A stretch of DNA of 64,000 nt, taken from positions 1 to 64,000 of IMG/VR virus record IMGVR_UViG_3300027987_000382; one strand, 5' to 3'. Below the pieces are notes generated by a model. That model saw only the letters and a program-made list of their open reading frames with translations. It made no database searches and was not told the origin of the DNA. Positions 35,013 through 48,188 of this stretch are shown here, in pieces (positions within the stretch are counted from its first letter, which is position 1; the number at the start of each line of letters is the position of its first letter). The translations under genes were made by a program, and so were the position numbers. This DNA comes from a virus.

Positions 35013-36740
35013 ATGCGACTCAGCGACATTGCCGAAATCATCATAGAGAACGTGGAGAAACTGCTCCCGTATCTTCGCGATGATGTCAAGCAATATTTGG
35101 CAAAGAGGAAAGAGGCTGGTGTACCAAACCCAACCGAATTTCCCACTCACCTGAACGAAAAATCGCTCAGCAAATGGATCGACATAGCCGTAGAATGGGC
35201 ATTGCGTGCCGATCCTCGCTACATACGTGAAATCAGAAAAGAAAAGCCTCTCAGCAGAATCAAAGCACCATTCGTCAAACAAATCCTCAAATGGTGGCTA
35301 GACCCAGCGGCTGGTGGCGGAATTGACCTACCAGAAGATATTGAAACGACGGCCGAAACGCTTAACCAATTCAATGTCGCCAAGCAACACGGGTTAAATG
35401 CGAACGCCGCCGATTTCACGCGTTGGGACGAGCTGGTTGCAGCTCTGCAACCGTTCCTCACAGAGCCAGAAGAAGCCGACAGCGACATCTACTCGCGAAT
35501 GGGCCTGGACCTCGTCTTCCACGAAGGACCATGGAAGATGTACACGGTCGACAAATGGATCCCTGGCGACCAATCGACCTTACATCCAGGTCAAGTGTGC
35601 CACAGAGCATTTGAAGGCACCCGCTGGTGCGTCAAGTATCAAAGCACATTCGAACGCACCTACAGCGGAGTCTACTACCTCGTTCTCTACAGAGGCAAGA
35701 GATTTGGGCTAATCAACTTCCCAAGCAAACAATTCAAGAATCCGCAAGACCAAGCAATCTCCAAAACAGAGCCAGAACTCGGACTCCAATTCTTGCAGTT
35801 GCTATTCAATAAGCGGCCCGACTTCCTGGCAGAATTGGCTCTAGCAATGCTCGATAGTCGATACTCGAGCTACAGTGACTTCGCCCCATTCATGGAGCAT
35901 TTCACGGCCGAGACAACGGAGATTCTGAACACACCAGAAGCGAGAGAAGGTGCACTTCGCGACCCGATGCAAGTAATCCAGCTGGCCAAATTCATCGGCG
36001 AATGGCCGCACTTTAGAGATTGGCCAGAGGGCTATCAAAAAATCGTGTCGACCGACTTCAGCACAAACACACGACGATCGCAGGCCATCCAAGAGCTTGT
36101 CGAAGCACGAGGCCGCGTCCCAGAAGTCGAAGCTAAAATCGATTCTGTAGAGGCATTCAAGCGATATTGCGTTTGGCTGACCAAGTCTAACATGAAGCCT
36201 GGTGCGGCGACCGATCTGATCGCAAAGGGTCGAGAGATCTCAGAAAACATCGCCAAAGACCCAACCAAAATCAGGGGAGCCATCAGCTGGCTAACCACAG
36301 AACGTGGACTCAGGGGCGGCGAGACTCCTCCACCATGGCCAAATATGGAACAGCAGATTCTGCGATCACAAGATCCACGAGCTGCTTTCGCTTATGCTAA
36401 ACTACTGGGCGAAGCTTGGCCAGAAGGCGAATCTCTCATCGCCTCTGATGACAGATCGGCAGAATCATACTTCAAGCTCACCGGCAAAGACGTTCGTGGC
36501 GGAAAACAGCTGGCAGAGCCGACTGACCCAGATGGCATCGTCAGAAGAGCAATTGCTCGCGGGAAAGAAATTCCTGCCGAGCAAGAAGACTTCATCCTAC
36601 AGGACCTCGATGCATCGATCGATTATGCCGAGCACCTGATCGGTCCGTGGCCAGAACTTGAGGACGAATTGCGTAAGAGAGGGACGTCGGCTCAGAAGAA
36701 AGAGTACTCGAGACGAGTCCTTTACGGCGAATTCCAGTGA
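35013..36740 (+). CDS. Large tagged protein, 575 aa (MRLSDIAE start)
   Basis: It begins MRLSDIAEII, matching the N-terminal tag with I-A-E at residues 6-8, but has no GLEDADEF. Residues 195-260 form a compact domain (GTRWCVKYQSTFERTYSGVYYLVLYRGKRFGLINF) of a kind seen in other large-phage proteins. The C-terminal 300 residues repeat short helical units with pattern 'D-p-x-A-x-x-Y-A-x-x-L-G-x-W-P' (AFAYAKLLGEAWPEGE, SIDYAEHLIGPWPELE, VIQLAKFIGEWPHFRD), a degenerate helical repeat. Function unknown; a capsid-internal protein is inferred from the tag. Solitary on the plus strand. Confidence 0.8.
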   Translation: MRLSDIAEIIIENVEKLLPYLRDDVKQYLAKRKEAGVPNPTEFPTHLNEKSLSKWIDIAVEWALRADPRYIREIRKEKPLSRIKAPFVKQILKWWLDPAAGGGIDLPEDIETTAETLNQFNVAKQHGLNANAADFTRWDELVAALQPFLTEPEEADSDIYSRMGLDLVFHEGPWKMYTVDKWIPGDQSTLHPGQVCHRAFEGTRWCVKYQSTFERTYSGVYYLVLYRGKRFGLINFPSKQFKNPQDQAISKTEPELGLQFLQLLFNKRPDFLAELALAMLDSRYSSYSDFAPFMEHFTAETTEILNTPEAREGALRDPMQVIQLAKFIGEWPHFRDWPEGYQKIVSTDFSTNTRRSQAIQELVEARGRVPEVEAKIDSVEAFKRYCVWLTKSNMKPGAATDLIAKGREISENIAKDPTKIRGAISWLTTERGLRGGETPPPWPNMEQQILRSQDPRAAFAYAKLLGEAWPEGESLIASDDRSAESYFKLTGKDVRGGKQLAEPTDPDGIVRRAIARGKEIPAEQEDFILQDLDASIDYAEHLIGPWPELEDELRKRGTSAQKKEYSRRVLYGEFQ

Positions 36741-37543
36741 TCTGCGGATTGTTCTTCTAGATAAGCCGGAAGCTCTGCAAAGCTCATTGCCCTCGGAATT
36801 ACAGAGCGGCCATCTTGACCTCGCGATTTCCACAACGCCGTCGCCTCTCCGGCCTGTTGATCGAAAGTTAGTCCAAGCAGCTTGACAGCCGAATCGATGC
36901 CCAGATGCTGCGATCTAGCATTGATTGTCACGTTGATGCCTTCAATCAAGCTAGCAAGAATCCTGTCGAAAATGACTGGAGGTGCTCCAAGCTCAAACAA
37001 CATCGCGACTGGATTTCCCGCAAAGTCTCTGTAGCTCTTACCCCGGTAATCAAAGCGGTCAGGTTCTTCATTGAATTTCGCTTCTGATTCATGCCGCCAT
37101 TTGATGTCTTTGATGTTGGTCATGTAGGCTGTCATGATCACTTTGAAGCGGTTATTCCAAATGTACTCCTTATGGGCGTTGTAGCGACCAGTTTCTGGAT
37201 CTGGTTCGGCCCAGCCGGTTTCATCCTGACCGCATCTCTCGCAAGGAATGTATTCGCCAAGAGTGGTGAAGTCTCGCATTCTCCCGATCAGAGATGCTCG
37301 CTGTGCACCAATTCTTTGGTATCGTCCAGCCCAACGCGGATAGACACCGGGTGTAATCCCCATGATGAGAATTTGGGTCCCGGTTTTCGGATGATTGATG
37401 ATCCGGGCGTGGTCTGCTTCGATGACAACGCCACGCCTCGTAAGAATCGTGGCTGGACGCAAACGACCACGGTTGCGAGTCTCGCTGACAATTCGCAACC
37501 TTTTTAGCATTAGCGTGTTGTCGATTTTATCCGATAGGTTCAT
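36722..37543 (-). CDS. RPAxIxxKRGT-family paralogue 1, 273 aa
   Basis: Starts MNLSDKIDNTLMLKRLRIVSETRN, a variant of the tagged beginning. Residues 26-150 share with the next two genes a block of RPATILTRRGVVIEADHAR, a GITPGVY-like turn, MRDFTTLGEYIP, DETGW-EP and a final KVIMTAYMTNIKDIKW. This copy has CERC before DETGW and a unique 120-aa C-terminal extension. Three tandem copies imply duplication; biochemical role unknown. Confidence 0.72.
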   Translation of the reverse strand: MNLSDKIDNTLMLKRLRIVSETRNRGRLRPATILTRRGVVIEADHARIINHPKTGTQILIMGITPGVYPRWAGRYQRIGAQRASLIGRMRDFTTLGEYIPCERCGQDETGWAEPDPETGRYNAHKEYIWNNRFKVIMTAYMTNIKDIKWRHESEAKFNEEPDRFDYRGKSYRDFAGNPVAMLFELGAPPVIFDRILASLIEGINVTINARSQHLGIDSAVKLLGLTFDQQAGEATALWKSRGQDGRSVIPRAMSFAELPAYLEEQSADHWNSP

Positions 37544-38201
37544 CTTCAAGCCTGTTGCCAGCCACGCGGCTTTTCCGCCACCAGTTCTTATTATCGTCGT
37601 ACGCTTTATATTCGTACTTGGACGGGTCGGTGCCGGGTTCCAGCAATTCAAGTGTTTTGACGTTCTCGCGATTCATCGTCAAGATTTTGCGGAACCGACG
37701 TGTGATCCTAAGTTCTCTGTCGGCACAATAATGGCCATATTCGTCTGGTTCAGACCAACCTGTTTCGTCTTGGTAGCCATGCTGCACAAGATAGCTGTCC
37801 GGATGGTATTCTCGCGAAAGATAGAAGTCTCTGAGCTTGAAGTACCATGAGTTTGGGAAATGGCCCTTGTAGACTCTTTGCCATCTGCCTGGGTCGATTC
37901 CAGCAATCACCCACATTGTACCGGTGAATGGGTTTCGCACCTCTCGCACGTGATGGACCGGGATTAGAGTGCCACGCTTCATGAGGATGATGGCGGGCTG
38001 CATTCGTCGAGATTCGAGTAGTGGGCCTAAACCGGCTTCACTGAGAGCCAGTCCAAGTTTGTCCTCGATTGACTCAGATTTCTTTTTCTTGACGCGTTCT
38101 GGAAGTTTCTTTCCCTTTGGCGTGTGCTTTTCCCACCGATCAGCCATTTCTGGATGATTAGCGTGCATCCAGCTTCGTTGAGCTTCGCTTTTGAATGGCA
38201 T
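37527..38201 (-). CDS. RPAxIxxKRGT-family paralogue 2 with MPFKSEAQR start, 224 aa
   Basis: GGAGA six bases before ATG fixes the start. The first 40 residues (MPFKSEAQRSWMHANHPEMA) form a short phage motif that occurs at the front of many unrelated phage proteins. After a Lys-rich linker the shared block begins at MQPAIILMKRGTLIPVHH and runs to KILTMNRENVKTLEL. Structured RNA copy A ends 15 bases upstream of the start codon. Confidence 0.74.
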   Translation of the reverse strand: MPFKSEAQRSWMHANHPEMADRWEKHTPKGKKLPERVKKKKSESIEDKLGLALSEAGLGPLLESRRMQPAIILMKRGTLIPVHHVREVRNPFTGTMWVIAGIDPGRWQRVYKGHFPNSWYFKLRDFYLSREYHPDSYLVQHGYQDETGWSEPDEYGHYCADRELRITRRFRKILTMNRENVKTLELLEPGTDPSKYEYKAYDDNKNWWRKSRVAGNRLEDEPIG

Positions 38202-38216
38202 TAAATGTCTCCAAAA

Positions 38217-38365
38217 GGAGCGGACCACGAGTGAAGGCCGGAGGCCGTAGTACGCTCAAAGCGTTAGCTTTGAGATGGCATTTGTCTCTATACCGTCAGC
38301 ATCCTTCCTCAAGGATTGGCACGACTAACAGCTTCGAGACGTCGAGGAAACCCATGGTCCGCTCC
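38217..38365. ncRNA. Structured RNA element, copy A
   Basis: A 149-nt element closed by an 11-bp perfect helix (GGAGCGGACCA with TGGTCCGCTCC). Inside: GGCC-gga-GGCC; CTCAAAGC-gtta-GCTTTGAG; ATCCTT-cctc-AAGGAT. The conserved single-strand core reads CATTTGTCTCTATACCGTCAGC. It matches copies B and C in order and spacing while the helix sequences differ. Strand of transcription not known. Confidence 0.75.
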
Positions 38366-38367
38366 AA

Positions 38368-38521
38368 AAATGGTTGTCACCGGTGGCGGTCCGGAGACCA
38401 AACAAACGGAATATCCGTTAGGCTATTCCTTACATTCGCTCCTGTACCGCCCGCGTCCTTCCCCAAGGACGTACACGACCAAGCAGCTTCAGAGCATCAG
38501 GGAAACCGATTACAACCATTT
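38368..38521. ncRNA. Structured RNA element, copy B
   Basis: A 154-nt element closed by AAATGGTTGT with ACAACCATTT (10 bp). Inside: GGTC-cgga-GACC; GGAATA-t-CC-gtta-GG-c-TATTCC; GTCCTT-cccc-AAGGAC. The core is CATTCGCTCCTGTACCGCCCGC. One arm of the closing helix is also the last codons and stop (WL*) of the gene ending at 38510, so element and gene overlap. Confidence 0.75.
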
Positions 38522-38968
38522 GATTCCTAATATGTTCTCCGGATTGATTGTCATGATCTTCTCAAACTTCATCTTCTTGATGTAGTACCGATGGGCCGAA
38601 TATCCGCCCGGCCCACGACCACCGCACGGTCTGCTGTTGTATGCTTCAACAGCATGCCATCCTTCAGGGGTCTCGCCACCAAGTGGCTCATCCCAACCAG
38701 TCTCATCTTGGTATGGGGCTGGGATGTACTCTCCTGGTGCATAGAAATCTCGCAGCCGCCTCACAAATGAACCGTTTTTCGAAAGCGAGGCCGACGCCAT
38801 TTCTGTCTCGTAAAGTCCCGGTTTGACTCCGACTACGAGATATGATCTCCCAGTTGGATATTGAACCATTCTCGCATGATCCGCTTTAATCACCGTCCCC
38901 CGCTTCATTGTAATTATAGCAGGGCGGTGAGTTCTCAGCCGAGCTTCTGCGATATGGTAAAGTTTCAT
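38510..38968 (-). CDS. RPAxIxxKRGT-family paralogue 3 with MKLYHIAE tag, 152 aa
   Basis: Starts MKLYHIAEARLRTHRPAIITMKRGT, so the tag with I-A-E at residues 6-8 runs straight into the shared block. It then has KADHARMVQYPTGRSYLVVG, RRLRDFYAPGEYIP, YQDETGWDEP and KIMTINPENILGIKWL. It is the shortest copy and probably closest to the basic unit. No ribosome site precedes the ATG; instead the closing arm of structured RNA copy C ends 7 bases before it. Confidence 0.75.
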   Translation of the reverse strand: MKLYHIAEARLRTHRPAIITMKRGTVIKADHARMVQYPTGRSYLVVGVKPGLYETEMASASLSKNGSFVRRLRDFYAPGEYIPAPYQDETGWDEPLGGETPEGWHAVEAYNSRPCGGRGPGGYSAHRYYIKKMKFEKIMTINPENILGIKWL

Positions 38969-38975
38969 AGGAAAA

Positions 38976-39114
38976 CCGCAGTTGCGAGTGAAGAACGTCA
39001 AACGCTCGCACCATTAGGTTCGAGATTGCATTCGCCTCTGTACCACCAGCATCCTTTCCCAAGGATGTGCACGTTCCGATAGCTTCAAGGCACCAGGAAA
39101 ACCCGCAACTGCGG
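38976..39114. ncRNA. Structured RNA element, copy C, upstream of the reverse transcriptase
   Basis: A 139-nt element closed by CCGCAGTTGCG with CGCAACTGCGG (11 bp, perfect). Inside: CGT-caa-ACG; CTCG-c-ACC-atta-GGT-t-CGAG; ATCCTT-tccc-AAGGAT. The core is CATTCGCCTCTGTACCACCAGC. It fills the space between the divergent paralogue gene (38968) and the reverse transcriptase (39132), 17 bases before the latter's ATG. Confidence 0.78.
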
Positions 39115-39131
39115 TATTGTATTTTTGCAAC

Positions 39132-40330
39132 ATGATCTCAATCGACGACTGCAAACAAGCATACTCGCTCCAGAACGCCGCTTTAGTTATCGCGAACAAA
39201 GTGGCATTCGACAAAGGCAAGGGATTCGCCAGGTCCTGGGAGCCGCCAATCTCGACGCCAGACTACCCAGACTCGAACGTCACCTCACCAACTACCAATT
39301 TAGCCCAACGGCTAAACAGATAAAGTACGTCAAGTGGAAAGAGAGAATTCTATACATATCCACCTGGGAAGACAAAATTGTCGAAACATGGCTCAGCCGA
39401 TCTCTCAATAAATTATTATCCAGCTGGTTCTCAAAACGATCATACGCCTATCGCCTCGAGAAAATCGGAGTCGACACTTGCCAACGCGACGTCATCGACG
39501 TCATCAAATCAAGTCGCTTCATCGCCAGACGCGATATCCGCAATTTCTTCTACACGATTGACCACGAGCTGCTCCTAGACAAGCTCTCTGCAATCCTAGA
39601 TCCGCCACTCCTCGACTTGGTCAGACAGCGAGTCCAATTCGAGTATTATGAGAACGGAGAAATAAAGGAATGCGAGCTGGGTGTACCGTTCGGATCACCG
39701 ATCGCTTGTTTGCTAGCAAACATTTACCTCACAGCGACAGACCACAAACTGGCAGCACAGAATGCTCACTACTTCAGGTACGCAGATGACTTCCTCATTG
39801 CATCAGATTCGGCCGGTCCAGTTTTAGACAGCGTAGAATTACTGCGAGATGAGGTTGAATATCTGCGTCTCGAGTTGCATCCAGACAAAGGTGTGAATTT
39901 GTCGTTTGAAGACCACCCGAACTTCGACATCACCAACAGATTCAAGTATCTCGGCTTAGAATATTGGCACGACGGCGTTGTTCGCCTCCCCATCGAGAAG
40001 AAACGAAAGATCGCGGGCATTTTCAGGCGAGCACTTCGCAGTCAGAAAAAGAGATTGCTGAAGATTGAAGACCTGACTGAGCGGACTAAAGCGGCAGTCG
40101 CCTGTGTCGCAGAAGCGGCATTGAAAAGAATCAGGTACGCCGCCATCATCGACTACTATCTCAAGCATGTAGAGGACGAAGAACAACTCAAGGTCCTCGA
40201 CCGCGAAATTGCCGAGATGGTGATCAGCACAGTCCTTGACAAGCCGTTCAAAGCACGCGACTTCAAAAAGATTCCGTACGGAACACGATTACGGACTTGT
40301 CTCATTGCTGCACAGAAGCAGGTTGCATAG
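39132..40330 (+). CDS. Reverse transcriptase, with an apparent frameshift near 39221
   Basis: Core motifs are intact: DIRNFFYTIDHELL (first catalytic Asp), GVPFGSPIACLLANIYL, YADDFLIAS (catalytic YxDD) and FKYLGLEYWHDG. The FGSP form of motif 4 excludes a standard diversity-generating RT (SQ), and no retron VTG motif is seen. The natural-looking start MISIDDCKQAYSLQNAAL lies in the frame of 39132, but the core lies one base back. Adding one G to the GGG at 39221-39223 joins them as FDKGK-GIRQVLGAANLDARL. It may be real decay, slippage or a read error. No ribosome site; RNA copy C lies directly upstream. Confidence 0.82.
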
Positions 40331-40361
40331 GCACGGGCAGTTGAACGTGCCGTTCCTCTCC

Positions 40362-40511
40362 ATGTACAACAGCATTCTCTTCGAACGATTCGAAGAAGGC
40401 AAACGACGGCGTTCTGAGCGTATCAGCCAGATTCGGCTGGCTCGGAAGCTGAAGAAGATTCGAGCAGACGACCAGCATAATCATCCGCAAGAGCAGCAAG
40501 GTGCGGATTAG
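40362..40511 (+). CDS. Small basic ORF after the reverse transcriptase, 49 aa
   Basis: Helical and Arg/Lys-rich (RFEEGKRRRSERISQIRLARKL). It lies 31 bases beyond the reverse-transcriptase stop and could be an accessory protein. No ribosome site, and it overlaps a minus-strand ORF by 89 bases, so only one of the two may be used. Confidence 0.35.
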   Translation: MYNSILFERFEEGKRRRSERISQIRLARKLKKIRADDQHNHPQEQQGAD

Positions 40512-40635
40512 AGAATACCGGCCTCTTGCTATCGCATTCATCGACCTCCATGATCTTCTTGCAGACGACGCCGGTCGGCACCTCATCCCTCATCATCAGA
40601 TAGAGGAATTCCTGCAGCCTTTCTCTGACGCTCAC
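40423..40635 (-). CDS. Hypothetical protein after the polymerase, about 70 aa
   Basis: A GTG start within the end of the polymerase gene gives MSVRERLQEFLYLMMRDEVPTGVV, continuing with helical sequence and a Ser/Ala/Glu tail. The start is uncertain (two ATG codons follow). Composition is protein-like; function unknown. Confidence 0.5.
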   Translation of the reverse strand: MSVRERLQEFLYLMMRDEVPTGVVCKKIMEVDECDSKRPVFSNPHLAALADDYAGRLLESSSASEPAESG

Positions 40636-43519
40636 GCCAGTCTCTTGGGAGGAGCTTGACAATGATCTGATTCCTTTTCAAAGTGAATGTTCCACGCATG
40701 TCGTCATAGTCAACACATGCCTGGATGCCCGTCCCAACAAGTAGAGTGCTCGCATCTTGCAGTGCCAGTTCATTGCTGAAAAGCAATAGCAAAGCGGTCT
40801 GGACGCCATCGCTGACGATCAGCCTCGCATATTCTTTCTTTGTCTTGGTCTCGGCGAATTGTAGCTCCGTGATCACCACTTCTAGCTTCGGATCACCGCC
40901 ATTCGCGGCGACCTCTTTCGCTTCTTCGATAGTGCAATCACCTTCGATGTCATAGACGTCCAACGGTGAATGCAGATAGTACCCAAGGTACTGTTTCTCG
41001 AACTCGAGCTTCTGCTCGAGGCTGAACGATTCATGGTCGAACAAAGCCATCACCCTCTCACGGGTGTCATCAGGCTTTGGTGTCCAATTCTGAATCTTAT
41101 TCGGGATCTTGCGACGATTGGGGAACTGAGCCTTGTACTCGGCAGTCTGTCGCTTACGTTCCTCTTCGATCGTCTCATCGTTCCAATCGTCCTGGTCAAG
41201 CAGCTTCTGCCGAACCTCTTGGCGGATCTGTGTGATGTCCTTCCCGCTGCAATACTTGTACTGGTACCACATCCAAGTGGCATAGCTATTCTCATGTCCC
41301 GGCACCGAAGAAAAGGCACCAAGCTTGATGAACCGCTCCATCACAGTCTTGCTCTTAGCACCCTTCTTTTCGATGAACTCGTCGATGTCTGTGAATGATC
41401 CGCGACCAACAAACTTATCAGCTGCCGCTTCACCGATCCCTTTGATGCCGATCATCCCCTGGTTGACTTTGTCACCAGTCGCCGTGAAGTTCGTCGTCAA
41501 GTTCGTGATGTTGATTGTGTCGAACACGACTCCCTTAGCCCGTTCTTCTGGTCTGAAAGTTCCACAGTATGTGATGTCTGTCGGTTCCCATTTCTCGGCT
41601 CTAGCGATGCCCATGTAACGGACGAGCTTGTCTGGATGGCAGTCGCTCATCACCGCTGCCCACCACTCTGGTGCGAAGTGAGCCTTCAACCACAAGCATC
41701 TCAGAGCCACCAGACAATAAGACACAGCATGTGACCGGTTGAATGCGTAGCGTCCGAACGTCTCCATCTTCGGCCACCACTCGGCCGCCTCTTTGTCGCC
41801 GATAACACGGGACGCACCAATCAGCCATTGCTCTCTGATCGGTTTCAGTTTGTGTGTCCACTTCTTGGCAACAGCTTTTCTAGCTTCTTGTGCCTGCGGA
41901 GCCGTGAAACCAGCGATCAGCTGCCAAATTGCCTGGAGCTGCTCCTGATAGACGATCACGCCGTACGTCGACTCCAGAACCCGAAGGATGTCTGGGTGCA
42001 GCCGCTTCTTCCAGCTGGCGGTTGGATCATCGCGGTTCTCAACAGCCTCTGGGATCGACGCCATCGGACCAGGGTGCCCCATGGCGTTGAAAAGCATCAA
42101 GTCTTCGAAATTCCTAACGCCATTCGCCAGAATACTCTTGGCCAGATCGGTGTCGAACTGGAACACCCCATCAGTCTTTTGCTCGTTTGCGAGCCTGAGT
42201 GCATGCACGTCATTGAGTTCAATGAACCGTTTCTTCCTATCGGCATCGTAGAAATGCCCGGCCCTATTTTGTGTCGGATCGATGTCGTCCCAACCGCTCA
42301 TAATTGGCGGCAAGTCTTGGCCGTGCTGTGATTGTTCTGCCCTTGGCTTGCCAAACGAGATGCCGCGATTCTGTTCAATGAGTCTGCAGCACTCGAAAAT
42401 ATACTTGAGCGTCTTGAGTCCCAGGATATCCCACTTGATGTAGCCGAACTTGGAGAGCTGCGTGTTGCGGCCTTCGGACCACATGCTCACCCAGTAACCC
42501 TTGCTTCCACTTTTGGCTAACGGGATGTTGCCGAACAGGGTGCGATCGGCGATAATCAGAGCCCCAGCGTGCATACCCATGTTACGCACACGGCCGATGA
42601 TCTGCACGGCGTAGCTGACTTCTTGCGGATATTTCCTAGCGAAGGCACGAAGCTGTTCGTGTTCCTTTAATAATTTGCCAATTGTAGGGCTGTCGGTAGC
42701 AGTACCGCCGCTACTATCCTTCTTCTGTTGCTTCGATCCGCCATGATGTTGTTTATCCTCGTAATCTCCTTCGCCGCCGCCGGGCGGCTGCCGCTGAAGT
42801 GCCAGATATTTCTCTGTTGGAGAGCATTTTGGACAACTCCAATTGGTGTGTACGTGGCCGCACTCTTTCTCTTCGCCTGTTTGTGCGTCCTTGATCCGCT
42901 CTTTGCAGGCCGCAGCTCCGCCGTCCTTCAATTCGTCGACGTCGTCCGGCAGACTTGTCGTTAGTTCGTAAACCTCGGCACGTCGCCGCTTCTTGTCCTC
43001 TTCATCGGCGGCCGTCGCTTGCATCGTGTCAATCAGAGCAGAACGGAACTTGTAAGTCTGCCAAGTACCGACTGAGCACACGGGGCCGTAGCCGTCCGTA
43101 ATGTTCATGCCGTATTTCTTGGCGGCATATTCCTTGATCGGATCACGAGCCTCTGGCAAACAGTCGAGGTCGATGTCTGGCATGTCCGGGTCTTTGACGA
43201 AGTCGCACGGCACGTGGCCTTTGTCGGCCTTGTACTTCATGACTTCGGACGCTCGGACTGTACAGAGCATCTCGTCTTTGCGGTTGGCGATTGGGTCGCC
43301 TTCGACCATCCCTAGCAGCCACGGCAGAACCAAGCAGCCTGGGTTTTTGTCGAATTTCTTGCCGTCGTTGTAGAGATTGATCCAGTAGGTTGTGGCACCT
43401 TGTTTCTCAATCTCTCGTTGCTCGAATGTCAAGCGGTTTTGATAGGTGCCATTCAAGCCACGCTGGTCAAGCTCCTCGTGAGCGAGGGTTTTCAGCTCTT
43501 CCCAAGTGACTTCAGCCAT
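40583..43519 (-). CDS. dnaE (C-part): DNA polymerase III alpha subunit (DnaE), C-terminal part
   Basis: 978 aa. A 110-residue lead resembles the stretch before the palm (EELKTLAHEELDQRGLNGTYQNRL). MPDIDLDCLPEARDPI then supplies the two catalytic Asp. MGMHAGALIIAD, GVFQFDTDLAKSIL, YGVIVYQEQLQAI and FNRSHAVSYCLVALRCLWLKAH are standard finger motifs. GIKGIGEAAADKF is a helix-hairpin-helix, and an OB-like end follows. A CKERIKD...CGHVHTNWSCPKC zinc insert near residue 215 is unusual. The PHP and first palm segments are in a separate gene at 46115, 2.6 kb upstream. It is probably the replicase when joined with that part. Confidence 0.9.
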   Translation of the reverse strand: MAEVTWEELKTLAHEELDQRGLNGTYQNRLTFEQREIEKQGATTYWINLYNDGKKFDKNPGCLVLPWLLGMVEGDPIANRKDEMLCTVRASEVMKYKADKGHVPCDFVKDPDMPDIDLDCLPEARDPIKEYAAKKYGMNITDGYGPVCSVGTWQTYKFRSALIDTMQATAADEEDKKRRRAEVYELTTSLPDDVDELKDGGAAACKERIKDAQTGEEKECGHVHTNWSCPKCSPTEKYLALQRQPPGGGEGDYEDKQHHGGSKQQKKDSSGGTATDSPTIGKLLKEHEQLRAFARKYPQEVSYAVQIIGRVRNMGMHAGALIIADRTLFGNIPLAKSGSKGYWVSMWSEGRNTQLSKFGYIKWDILGLKTLKYIFECCRLIEQNRGISFGKPRAEQSQHGQDLPPIMSGWDDIDPTQNRAGHFYDADRKKRFIELNDVHALRLANEQKTDGVFQFDTDLAKSILANGVRNFEDLMLFNAMGHPGPMASIPEAVENRDDPTASWKKRLHPDILRVLESTYGVIVYQEQLQAIWQLIAGFTAPQAQEARKAVAKKWTHKLKPIREQWLIGASRVIGDKEAAEWWPKMETFGRYAFNRSHAVSYCLVALRCLWLKAHFAPEWWAAVMSDCHPDKLVRYMGIARAEKWEPTDITYCGTFRPEERAKGVVFDTINITNLTTNFTATGDKVNQGMIGIKGIGEAAADKFVGRGSFTDIDEFIEKKGAKSKTVMERFIKLGAFSSVPGHENSYATWMWYQYKYCSGKDITQIRQEVRQKLLDQDDWNDETIEEERKRQTAEYKAQFPNRRKIPNKIQNWTPKPDDTRERVMALFDHESFSLEQKLEFEKQYLGYYLHSPLDVYDIEGDCTIEEAKEVAANGGDPKLEVVITELQFAETKTKKEYARLIVSDGVQTALLLLFSNELALQDASTLLVGTGIQACVDYDDMRGTFTLKRNQIIVKLLPRDWRERQRKAAGIPLSDDEG

Positions 43520-45826: not shown

Positions 45827-46118
45827 TAAACAACTCCGGTGAGCATCGTGGACAATCGAAATCGTGAAGGCACCCGCCACCCGGTCTGCACTGTAACGGA
45901 CCACCGCAATCAGAGCAGGTTGGTTCTGGATAGCGATCAAAGATCAGCCAGTCAGACGGCACAGTCTCATCGAAGCCAGTGACGGCTTTTTCTGGGCTGT
46001 CAACCTGCTCGTTCCAAATGACCCTGGCCTCTTTCCCGTCATTGCTCATGACCATGACGTTGCGGACCTGACCATCAGGCCACTTACAGAGTGCTTCACA
46101 ATCGTATTTATTCGTCAA
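45819..46118 (-). CDS. Small protein with zinc-ribbon end, 99 aa
   Basis: A beta-rich start (VRNVMVMSNDGKEARVIW) is followed by CSDCGGPLQC...CPRC, a zinc ribbon. It is coupled by ATGA to the polymerase N-part, directly downstream of it in transcription. Confidence 0.65.
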   Translation of the reverse strand: MTNKYDCEALCKWPDGQVRNVMVMSNDGKEARVIWNEQVDSPEKAVTGFDETVPSDWLIFDRYPEPTCSDCGGPLQCRPGGGCLHDFDCPRCSPELFNE

Positions 46119-47533
46119 TTGATCGGCTCCGGCATTTTGACATTCAACATGTACCCGCCACGGCTCGGCGACAGGAATCTGTCAAATGAAAGTTCCCACA
46201 ACATGGGATCTAACACATGGATACCAAGCAAGAAACAAACCAACGAACCTCCAGCACTACCGCGAGGGCTAAATGGCCAGCCTCGCTTCTTCCCGTACCC
46301 CACCAAATCGCGAGTGATCAAGAAGTAACTGGCAAATCCTTTGTCGATGAACCGATTCAATTCGATTTTGGCCTGATCGACGTAAGTGACCTCGTTGCCG
46401 TCGATAATAAACCTCTTATCGACCTTTGTCAAGCCACGACTGTGCAATTCAGCCGCGACCAGCTTCTTGAGTTCATCGTCGGCATTCTGAATGTCCGGAA
46501 TTTTGGGCGATGTGTCGACGTCGAAAGGTTGGCACTTTTCTGCCACCATTAAAGTGTTGTCGCACATTCGCTCGAAGACGCCGTCGTCGAGGCCCCTGTC
46601 GTATCCGCCATTCTTGAATCTAGCCCACAACTCAGCACGCGACTTCATGTACTGCTCATCGCTGTTCACATGGAACAGATCAGGCGAATCGATCGTCGTA
46701 TCTTGTGCTACAGCCATCATGATCTTCTGCAGGATGAAATCCTTGCGGCGGAGATAATGGCAGTCGTTCGCCAGCACGATAGGGATTTTATACTGGTCGG
46801 CAATCATCACCAACCAGCGGAATACCTTCTCGTCTTCCGGGATGCCCGGCATCTGAAGTTCGATATAGTAGTCGTCTCCGAAAGCCGCTTTGAATTTCTT
46901 GACCCAATCGACAGCCGACTGGAATCGTTCCTCCTTAGTCCTCTCGCTGATCACGTTTCCTTCACGGTCCGTCAATTCCTTGTATCGAAGCTCGTGACAC
47001 ACCGGTCCGTTAAGGCAGCCGGATAGGATGATCAGACCCTCTTTGTATTCGCACAGTTTATCGAACCAAATGCGGTTGAACTGCATTCGGCCGAGACCGA
47101 ACAAACCAGTTTCGTACGCCTGAGTCGTCAACTTGACCAGATTGTGGAATCCAGTCTCATTCTTGCAGAGGACAGTGAGATGACGATTGCGGAACATTCG
47201 TGCCGCTAGTTCTTGGTTTTGCTGCCGCCATTCGAACGATCGGATCTTGATGCCTCGAGAGATGAGGTCTTTCCTGGCAGGCTCGTAGTCGTTGAAGTAA
47301 ATCTCGCATCCGGGGATGTACTTAACCCCAGCTTTCTTGAAGGCGAGATACATATCTGGCACGCTTGCCATGTGGCCGTGCTCTGTGGCACTCATTGCCG
47401 GATAGCCGCGTGCGACGCATTGCTCAGCATACTGTTCTGGTGTCGCTACTCCATCGAGAGCCGAAAAGACCGTATGGTTGTGAAGATGGACGAATTCCTT
47501 CGGTCCTTTATAGTTTTCCGGCTTGAATGTCAT
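46115..47533 (-). CDS. dnaE (N-part): DNA polymerase III alpha subunit (DnaE), N-terminal part
   Basis: 472 aa from the ATG with GAGG six bases upstream. FVHLHNHTVFSALDG, MSATEHGHMASV, YIPGCEIYF and IVLANDCHYL are PHP-domain metal sites. The palm then starts (YVDQAKIELNRFIDKGFASYFLI), and SPRGSAGGSLVCFLLGI with LSFDRFLSPSRGG is the glycine loop before the catalytic acids. The gene stops just before the PDxDxD motif, which is in the gene at 40583. No intein end is visible. Both parts repeat a YxxRLxxEL-like segment. Confidence 0.9.
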   Translation of the reverse strand: MTFKPENYKGPKEFVHLHNHTVFSALDGVATPEQYAEQCVARGYPAMSATEHGHMASVPDMYLAFKKAGVKYIPGCEIYFNDYEPARKDLISRGIKIRSFEWRQQNQELAARMFRNRHLTVLCKNETGFHNLVKLTTQAYETGLFGLGRMQFNRIWFDKLCEYKEGLIILSGCLNGPVCHELRYKELTDREGNVISERTKEERFQSAVDWVKKFKAAFGDDYYIELQMPGIPEDEKVFRWLVMIADQYKIPIVLANDCHYLRRKDFILQKIMMAVAQDTTIDSPDLFHVNSDEQYMKSRAELWARFKNGGYDRGLDDGVFERMCDNTLMVAEKCQPFDVDTSPKIPDIQNADDELKKLVAAELHSRGLTKVDKRFIIDGNEVTYVDQAKIELNRFIDKGFASYFLITRDLVGYGKKRGWPFSPRGSAGGSLVCFLLGIHVLDPMLWELSFDRFLSPSRGGYMLNVKMPEPIN

Positions 47534-48188
47534 CAACATTCCTCATGATGTCTACTGGCACATTTTGGTATGGCGGAATGTCGCTCCTCAGAAGACCCCC
47601 AACGACACGTTGACAGAGAAGCTGGTCTGTTTCTGGCACTTCTGGGTAATGGGGATCTATGGCAGTTCTCCCCATCCTCGCGATTAGTCGTTCAAATACA
47701 GCCGCTTCACTCGGGTTCTGGAGGCTGCAGACCTTCCACAAACGGCACAAATGATTGTAGAAAACTTCGTCACCAAGTTTTTCTCGCAGCCGATCGAAAT
47801 TTTCTCTGATCGATTGTGCCTGTATCGGCAATTTAGATGGATCGAGCATTTCAATCCAATAATTCCGTCTGTACTCGCCCGCTATCTCCGTCTCAAAAAC
47901 GTGCTTGATCGTCTGGCGGCAGGCTTGAGCACAAATACGTACGACATCCTGGGCACGGTAGGAGCAATTCAGACCAGTTGCAAAAGCGACAGCCATATCG
48001 CACACGGTACGATACGAATAGCGATGACCAGTTTTGGCCTGGAACCAGCTGTCGAGATTCGGAACGGTTTGCCTATGCAATCGCTCATCGTAAAGAGCCG
48101 GAAGTCCAGGTCCCATTCGCAGGTACCACAACTCGGTCCTTAACTGAAATGCAACCGTATCACCGTTTGCATACTTGATGGTGAGCAT
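47508..48188 (-). CDS. Hypothetical protein, 226 aa
   Basis: Starts MLTIKYANGDTVAFQLR, head-to-head with the plus-strand gene at 48187, so the two start codons overlap on opposite strands. Helical, Arg/Gln/Cys-rich (RICAQACRQTIKHVFETEI, FYNHLCRLWKVCSL). Not recognised. Confidence 0.65.
   Translation of the reverse strand: MLTIKYANGDTVAFQLRTELWYLRMGPGLPALYDERLHRQTVPNLDSWFQAKTGHRYSYRTVCDMAVAFATGLNCSYRAQDVVRICAQACRQTIKHVFETEIAGEYRRNYWIEMLDPSKLPIQAQSIRENFDRLREKLGDEVFYNHLCRLWKVCSLQNPSEAAVFERLIARMGRTAIDPHYPEVPETDQLLCQRVVGGLLRSDIPPYQNVPVDIMRNVDDIQAGKL

Follow-up and report, generated by a model that had tools for sequence, protein, structure and literature searches.

Three regions of a 64,000-base stretch of DNA (the window; bases 1-64000 of a 146,839-base virus record) are best explained as three paralogous copies (A, B, and C) of one structured RNA, each ~140-155 nt in length. 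By sequence analysis, we demonstrate the structure of this RNA, the strand that encodes it, its pseudoknot, its proximity to start codons, and the paralogy of the genes with which it is arranged. We favour, with moderate confidence, its interpretation as a cis-acting leader of a phage gene family, which would probably act by controlling translation. The element is a clear new pseudoknotted structured RNA that shows covariation within a single genome and precedes a family of phage genes. If the leader interpretation is true, a large, repeated regulatory RNA joins the few that have been studied in phages, and it would also provide a handle on the role of the paralogous proteins.

Three copies of a structured RNA

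The three copies, together with the P4 loops that take part in their pseudoknots, are located as follows:

38217-38365, minus strand: RNA copy A (149 nt), with a P1 helix of 11 bp, helices P2-P6, and the pseudoknot
38307-38310, minus strand: P4 loop of copy A (GAGG), forming the pseudoknot with CCUC at 38344-38347
38368-38521, minus strand: RNA copy B (154 nt), with a P1 helix of 10 bp, helices P2-P6, and the pseudoknot
38461-38464, minus strand: P4 loop of copy B (GGGG), forming the pseudoknot with CCCU at 38499-38502
38976-39114, minus strand: RNA copy C (139 nt), with a P1 helix of 11 bp, helices P2, P3, P4, and P5, and the pseudoknot; P6 is absent
39057-39060, minus strand: P4 loop of copy C (GGGA), forming the pseudoknot with UCCU at 39095-39098

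All three repeats were found where the initial annotation had placed them. Their cores share 61-69% identity and, as had been described, each is closed by a perfect helix (11, 10, and 11 bp in A, B, and C, respectively) whose sequence is unrelated to those of the other two. When the 30-nt flanks were shuffled, a closing helix of such length beside the core was obtained in at most 1 of 10,000 shuffles for each copy. The compensating changes quoted for the inner hairpins (ATCCTT/AAGGAT versus GTCCTT/AAGGAC, and the RTTA-loop stem) were likewise confirmed. As for the proposed common architecture, the shared core was confirmed but a set of four helices common to all copies was not: the GGCC/GGTC hairpin is present only in A and B and is missing from C.

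In a manual alignment of the minus strands, 122 of 131 cells are paired and both sides have changed in 23 of the 44 pairs. For P2-P5 in a MAFFT alignment, 94.3% of the cells are paired and 12 pairs show a double change; none of 500 shuffles matched the observed covariation on any of five measures, and sliding the partners against each other as a control reduced the pairing to 41-48%. These values come from a small sample of three sequences, from which the structure itself was also derived, and the margins are large.

In a 4-bp pseudoknot, which also covaries, the P4 loop pairs with the strand that connects P1 with P2. This pseudoknot is the best additional stack among the unpaired columns; when columns were shuffled, 12 of 2000 shuffles gave a stack as good or better. 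Double changes are seen in two of its four pairs, and G-U pairs are present too. The covariation, the shuffling results, and the pseudoknot strongly support the earlier proposal that the repeats represent a selected structured RNA.

Each copy contains the motif UGYM both in the P3-P4 bulge and in the P2-P5 strand, with the same letters at the two sites (A, UGCC; B, UGUA; C, UGCA). This doubled motif may represent a repeated contact site or may have arisen by chance. Pairing of the UGYM in the bulge with that in the joining strand works only in B and C and was left out of the structure.

Strand of the RNA

The initial annotation had read the repeats on the plus strand, i.e. on that of the neighbouring reverse transcriptase (RT) gene. 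This reading was wrong: the folding energies, helices P2 and P3, and the pseudoknot all favour the minus strand, opposite to the RT, and we therefore reject a plus-strand, RT-linked RNA. We regard the assignment to the minus strand as firm and as very nearly certain.

The minimum free energies on the minus and plus strands are -71.0 versus -59.0 kcal/mol for A, -61.2 versus -54.5 kcal/mol for B, and -62.7 versus -46.3 kcal/mol for C, and the RNAalifold consensus gave -65.0 for the minus strand versus -49.0 for the plus strand. Compared with dinucleotide shuffles, the z-scores of the minus strand are -5.0, -6.9, and -3.5 for C, A, and B, respectively, with none of 200 shuffles being as good, and the consensus arms were recovered in the minimum energy structures of all three minus-strand copies. 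P2 and P3 are two extra helices found on the minus strand. P2 is formed across the copies by GUCUC/GAGAC, GCUCU/GGAGC, and GCCUU/GAGGC, with double changes as well as G-U pairs. The decisive evidence is P3, an 8-bp helix paired in 24 of 24 cells over the three copies, because 11 of these cells are G-U pairs that turn into A-C mismatches on the plus strand.

Paralogous genes on the minus strand

The RNA copies are interspersed with three protein-coding genes on the same strand:

38510-38968, minus strand: gene3 (152 aa), the paralog downstream of copy C
37527-38201, minus strand: gene2 (224 aa), the paralog that follows copies B and A
36722-37543, minus strand: gene1 (273 aa), the third paralog, sharing 17 nt with the end of gene2

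Read along the minus strand, the order is thus C, gene3, B, A, gene2, gene1. The three genes share 39-47% amino acid sequence identity in pairwise comparisons, are the only three such paralogs in the whole record, and differ most at third codon positions, as expected under coding selection. The structured element is located directly before same-strand start codons in two cases, the 3' end of copy C being 7 nt upstream of the ATG of gene3 and the end of copy A being 15 nt upstream of the gene2 ATG; the latter gap holds UUUU and the ribosome-binding-site-like sequence GGAG. Copy B is the exception: it covers the last 12 nt of gene3, including the stop codon, lies 2 nt ahead of copy A, and is directly followed by that copy, not by a gene. 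A run of 4-5 U follows P1 in every copy and GGAG follows A and B, but copy C has no ribosome-binding-site-like sequence. The ATG behind the GGAG of copy B opens a frame of only 19 codons. This frame lies inside copy A and may be what is left of a lost gene; at 38345-38370 on the minus strand, P1 of copy A begins with the very GGAG that follows B. The overlap of gene1 with gene2 leaves no space for a copy of the RNA ahead of gene1.

None of the three proteins matched a PADLOC family or gave a match above the cut-off in Pfam or NCBIfam; gene3 had no match at all in either of the latter two and only weak matches in PHROGs. No described family of known function, and in particular no toxin or defence family, was matched, and no relatives of the paralogs were found in IMG/VR. 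The start codon at 38201 gains support from the N-terminus of the gene2 product (MPFKSEAQ..., MPFKSEAQRSWMHANHPEMADRW...), which over 27 aa is 63% identical to a stretch of DNA from seven records of Streptomyces phages (E = 0.02). The AlphaFold model of the family was poor (pLDDT 43), and a fold search with this model returned no match at E <= 0.001. The RNA and the gene together look like a duplicated unit, perhaps with the loss of one gene after copy B and with no RNA before gene1.

A putative leader of the paralogous genes

The proposed repeated unit consists of the RNA, the U-run, the start codon, and the gene, in which copy C would serve gene3, and the tandem copies B and A would serve gene2 and the overlapping gene1. 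Closed by P1 and held by the pseudoknot, the RNA would form the 5' leader of these mRNAs and would probably control their translation or stability through P1, the 3' strand of which adjoins the presumed ribosome-binding region. The 3' strand ends with CUCC in copy A; if P1 opened, this sequence could base-pair with GGAG ahead of gene2, a possible switch as judged from the nucleotide sequence. Candidate triggers are the encoded protein (autoregulation, for which T4 gene 32 is an example), another phage or host protein, and a small molecule; among these, autoregulation appears most likely because the RNA and the gene were apparently duplicated together.

Some features count against a leader, namely the occurrence of the RNA in only three copies within a single phage, the lack of an RNA copy belonging to gene1, the position of B before A rather than before a gene, and the lack of a ribosome-binding-site-like sequence at C. 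In addition, neither C nor B was preceded by a consensus promoter in a promoter scan, and a terminator fitting the RNA element was not found. Weak promoter-like sequences read by hand before C and B were unsupported by the scan and were dropped.

Leaders of comparable kinds, including autoregulatory ones with structured operators, are known from phages. The T4 gene 32 leader contains a pseudoknot, and the gene 43 operator of T4 and RB69 is a hairpin with a UAAC loop (PMC3014915). The RNA described here resembles the former as a structured element with a pseudoknot ahead of a phage start codon, and the latter in having a hairpin with such a loop ahead of a start codon (the P5 loops are UAAC, UAAC, and UAAU). 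The gene 43 operators, however, are 16-18 nt in length, compared with 140-155 nt, multiple helices, and three copies here, and we do not claim that the sequences are related. Like the present element, the motifs manA and wcaG, candidate cis-regulatory RNAs of T4-like cyanophages, are conserved structured RNAs in presumed phage 5' UTRs (PMC2864571); unlike them, our RNA has no match among the 4227 Rfam families at E values up to 5.

The main rival explanation, which we consider rather unlikely, is that the RNAs are cut from the leader and bind the downstream protein as RNA partners or antitoxins, by analogy with type III toxin-antitoxin systems and AbiF, in which RNA repeats precede the toxin gene (PMC12373285). 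Such a role is favoured by the presence of a repeated, pseudoknotted RNA directly ahead of a protein gene, the tandem arrangement of B and A, and the apparent joint duplication of RNA and gene; moreover, the AbiF/RCd22 leader is a cis-regulator and an RNA antitoxin at once (PMC12373285). The systems differ, however, in repeat size and divergence, as the type III repeats described are ~34-50 nt long (PMC12373285), whereas the units found here are 140-155 nt long and only 61-69% alike. No terminator separates the RNA from the gene here, and the proteins match no known toxin or defence family.

It is also conceivable, though unlikely, that the three copies are independent, trans-acting phage small RNAs that merely happen to be intergenic. 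Their number, their self-contained closed structures, and the position of B away from a gene start would fit such RNAs, but two of the copies end 7 and 15 nt ahead of the start codons of paralogous genes, and no terminator follows the copies.

The adjacent reverse transcriptase

The RT gene lies next to copy C:

39132-40330, plus strand: RT gene (RVT_1, RYADD motif), divergent from copy C

The two are 10-18 nt apart and on opposite strands. The ORF listed for the RT encodes 401 aa and starts with TTG. Codon usage favours the frame of the ATG at 39132 up to ~39240-39265 and the frame of the 401-aa ORF thereafter, a change that may be due to a frameshift mutation, a base missing from the assembly, or programmed slippage. 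The RT scored 139 bits against TIGR04416 (group II RT; cut-off, 300), 48.7 bits against retron_St85_RT of NCBIfam (cut-off, 235), and 71, 62, and 20 bits against the DRT families Drt2, Drt3a, and Drt4 (cut-offs, 390, 200, and 450, respectively). The RT and UG models of PADLOC, which have no cut-offs, also match, the best being the general RT model (126.8 bits). In its predicted fold (pLDDT 73.5), the protein is nearest to the GsI-IIC RT, DRT9, and the G2L4 RT, a result that does not settle its class. The RT is a divergent, group II/DRT-like enzyme and may belong to an undescribed UG type.

No close relatives of the RT were found in IMG/VR by a single-sequence search or in the genomes within reach of the pattern scans. 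Profile searches yielded relatives with only 25-33% identity, which include group II intron-like RTs and an RT-Cas1 protein. As for an intron ribozyme around the RT, no Rfam intron matched the region 38900-40800.

A structured RNA adjoins the RT gene in retrons (msr-msd), DRT2, and DRT9, as it does here, and retron RNAs, like the present one, have a long and variable closing helix. In contrast to these systems, the present RNA is encoded on the opposite strand and in three copies, and the RT scores below the cut-offs of the retron and DRT families that it matches. A retron ncRNA precedes its RT and shares its strand; here the RNA is on the minus and the RT on the plus strand. The presence of an RT near a structured RNA is thus insufficient for a retron- or DRT-like call, and the strand must be settled first.

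That the RNAs serve as template, primer, or scaffold of the adjacent RT, being encoded divergently, appears improbable to us. The short distance between copy C and the RT speaks for such a role, and the RTs of DRT2 and DRT9, which are close in fold, use adjacent structured RNAs (PMC12039810, PMC12489045). The initial annotation had compared copy C to such template or primer RNAs; this is unsupported, as the RNA and the RT are encoded on opposite strands and the RNA copies track the start codons of other genes, i.e. the minus-strand paralogs. The reading frame of the RT is also shifted. Furthermore, a link to RTs in other genomes was not obtained: a covariance model built from the RNA (R1) gave no convincing match in ~735 kb around 123 loci of distant RT relatives (best E = 0.65), which is a weak test at 25-33% identity. 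The RT is best regarded as a neighbour of the RNA; a role of the RNA with the RT, though possible, is now a less likely reading than a leader. A new type of RT system, in which an RT acts with divergently encoded RNAs present in several diverged copies that double as leaders of phage genes, seems very improbable.

Distribution of the RNA

Over the whole record, model R1 recovered A, B, and C and nothing further. Selection of these sequences as DNA hairpins, i.e. as inverted repeats or mobile cassettes, is extremely improbable: P1 is indeed an inverted repeat at the DNA level with no G-U among its 32 paired cells, but in P3 the pairing is maintained by 11 G-U pairs, which fits a minus-strand RNA, the pseudoknot includes G-U pairs too, and the record lacks further copies.

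In the window, Rfam 15 (4227 families) detected only 12 tRNAs at the gathering threshold, and no match was found at E values up to 5 over 38150-39180 and 38900-40800. Five scans of IMG/VR with degenerate patterns returned 14 contigs in total, in none of which R1 found the RNA; the matches from two of these scans fall in coding DNA. One pattern, applied to 85,000 genomes, gave no matches. As these scans demand an exact match to the degenerate pattern, diverged relatives could be missed. The RNA is best regarded as an orphan, undescribed element present in three copies in one phage genome.

Genome setting

Besides the 12 tRNAs, the window encodes a DnaE-type DNA polymerase, and the 147-kb record appears to derive from a large phage. 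The DNA polymerase III alpha subunit is divided over two minus-strand ORFs (40583-43519 and 46115-47539), which match positions 41-439 and 440-1036 of one PHROG model. The two ORFs are separated by a gap of ~2.6 kb that contains several genes, including one for a methyltransferase.
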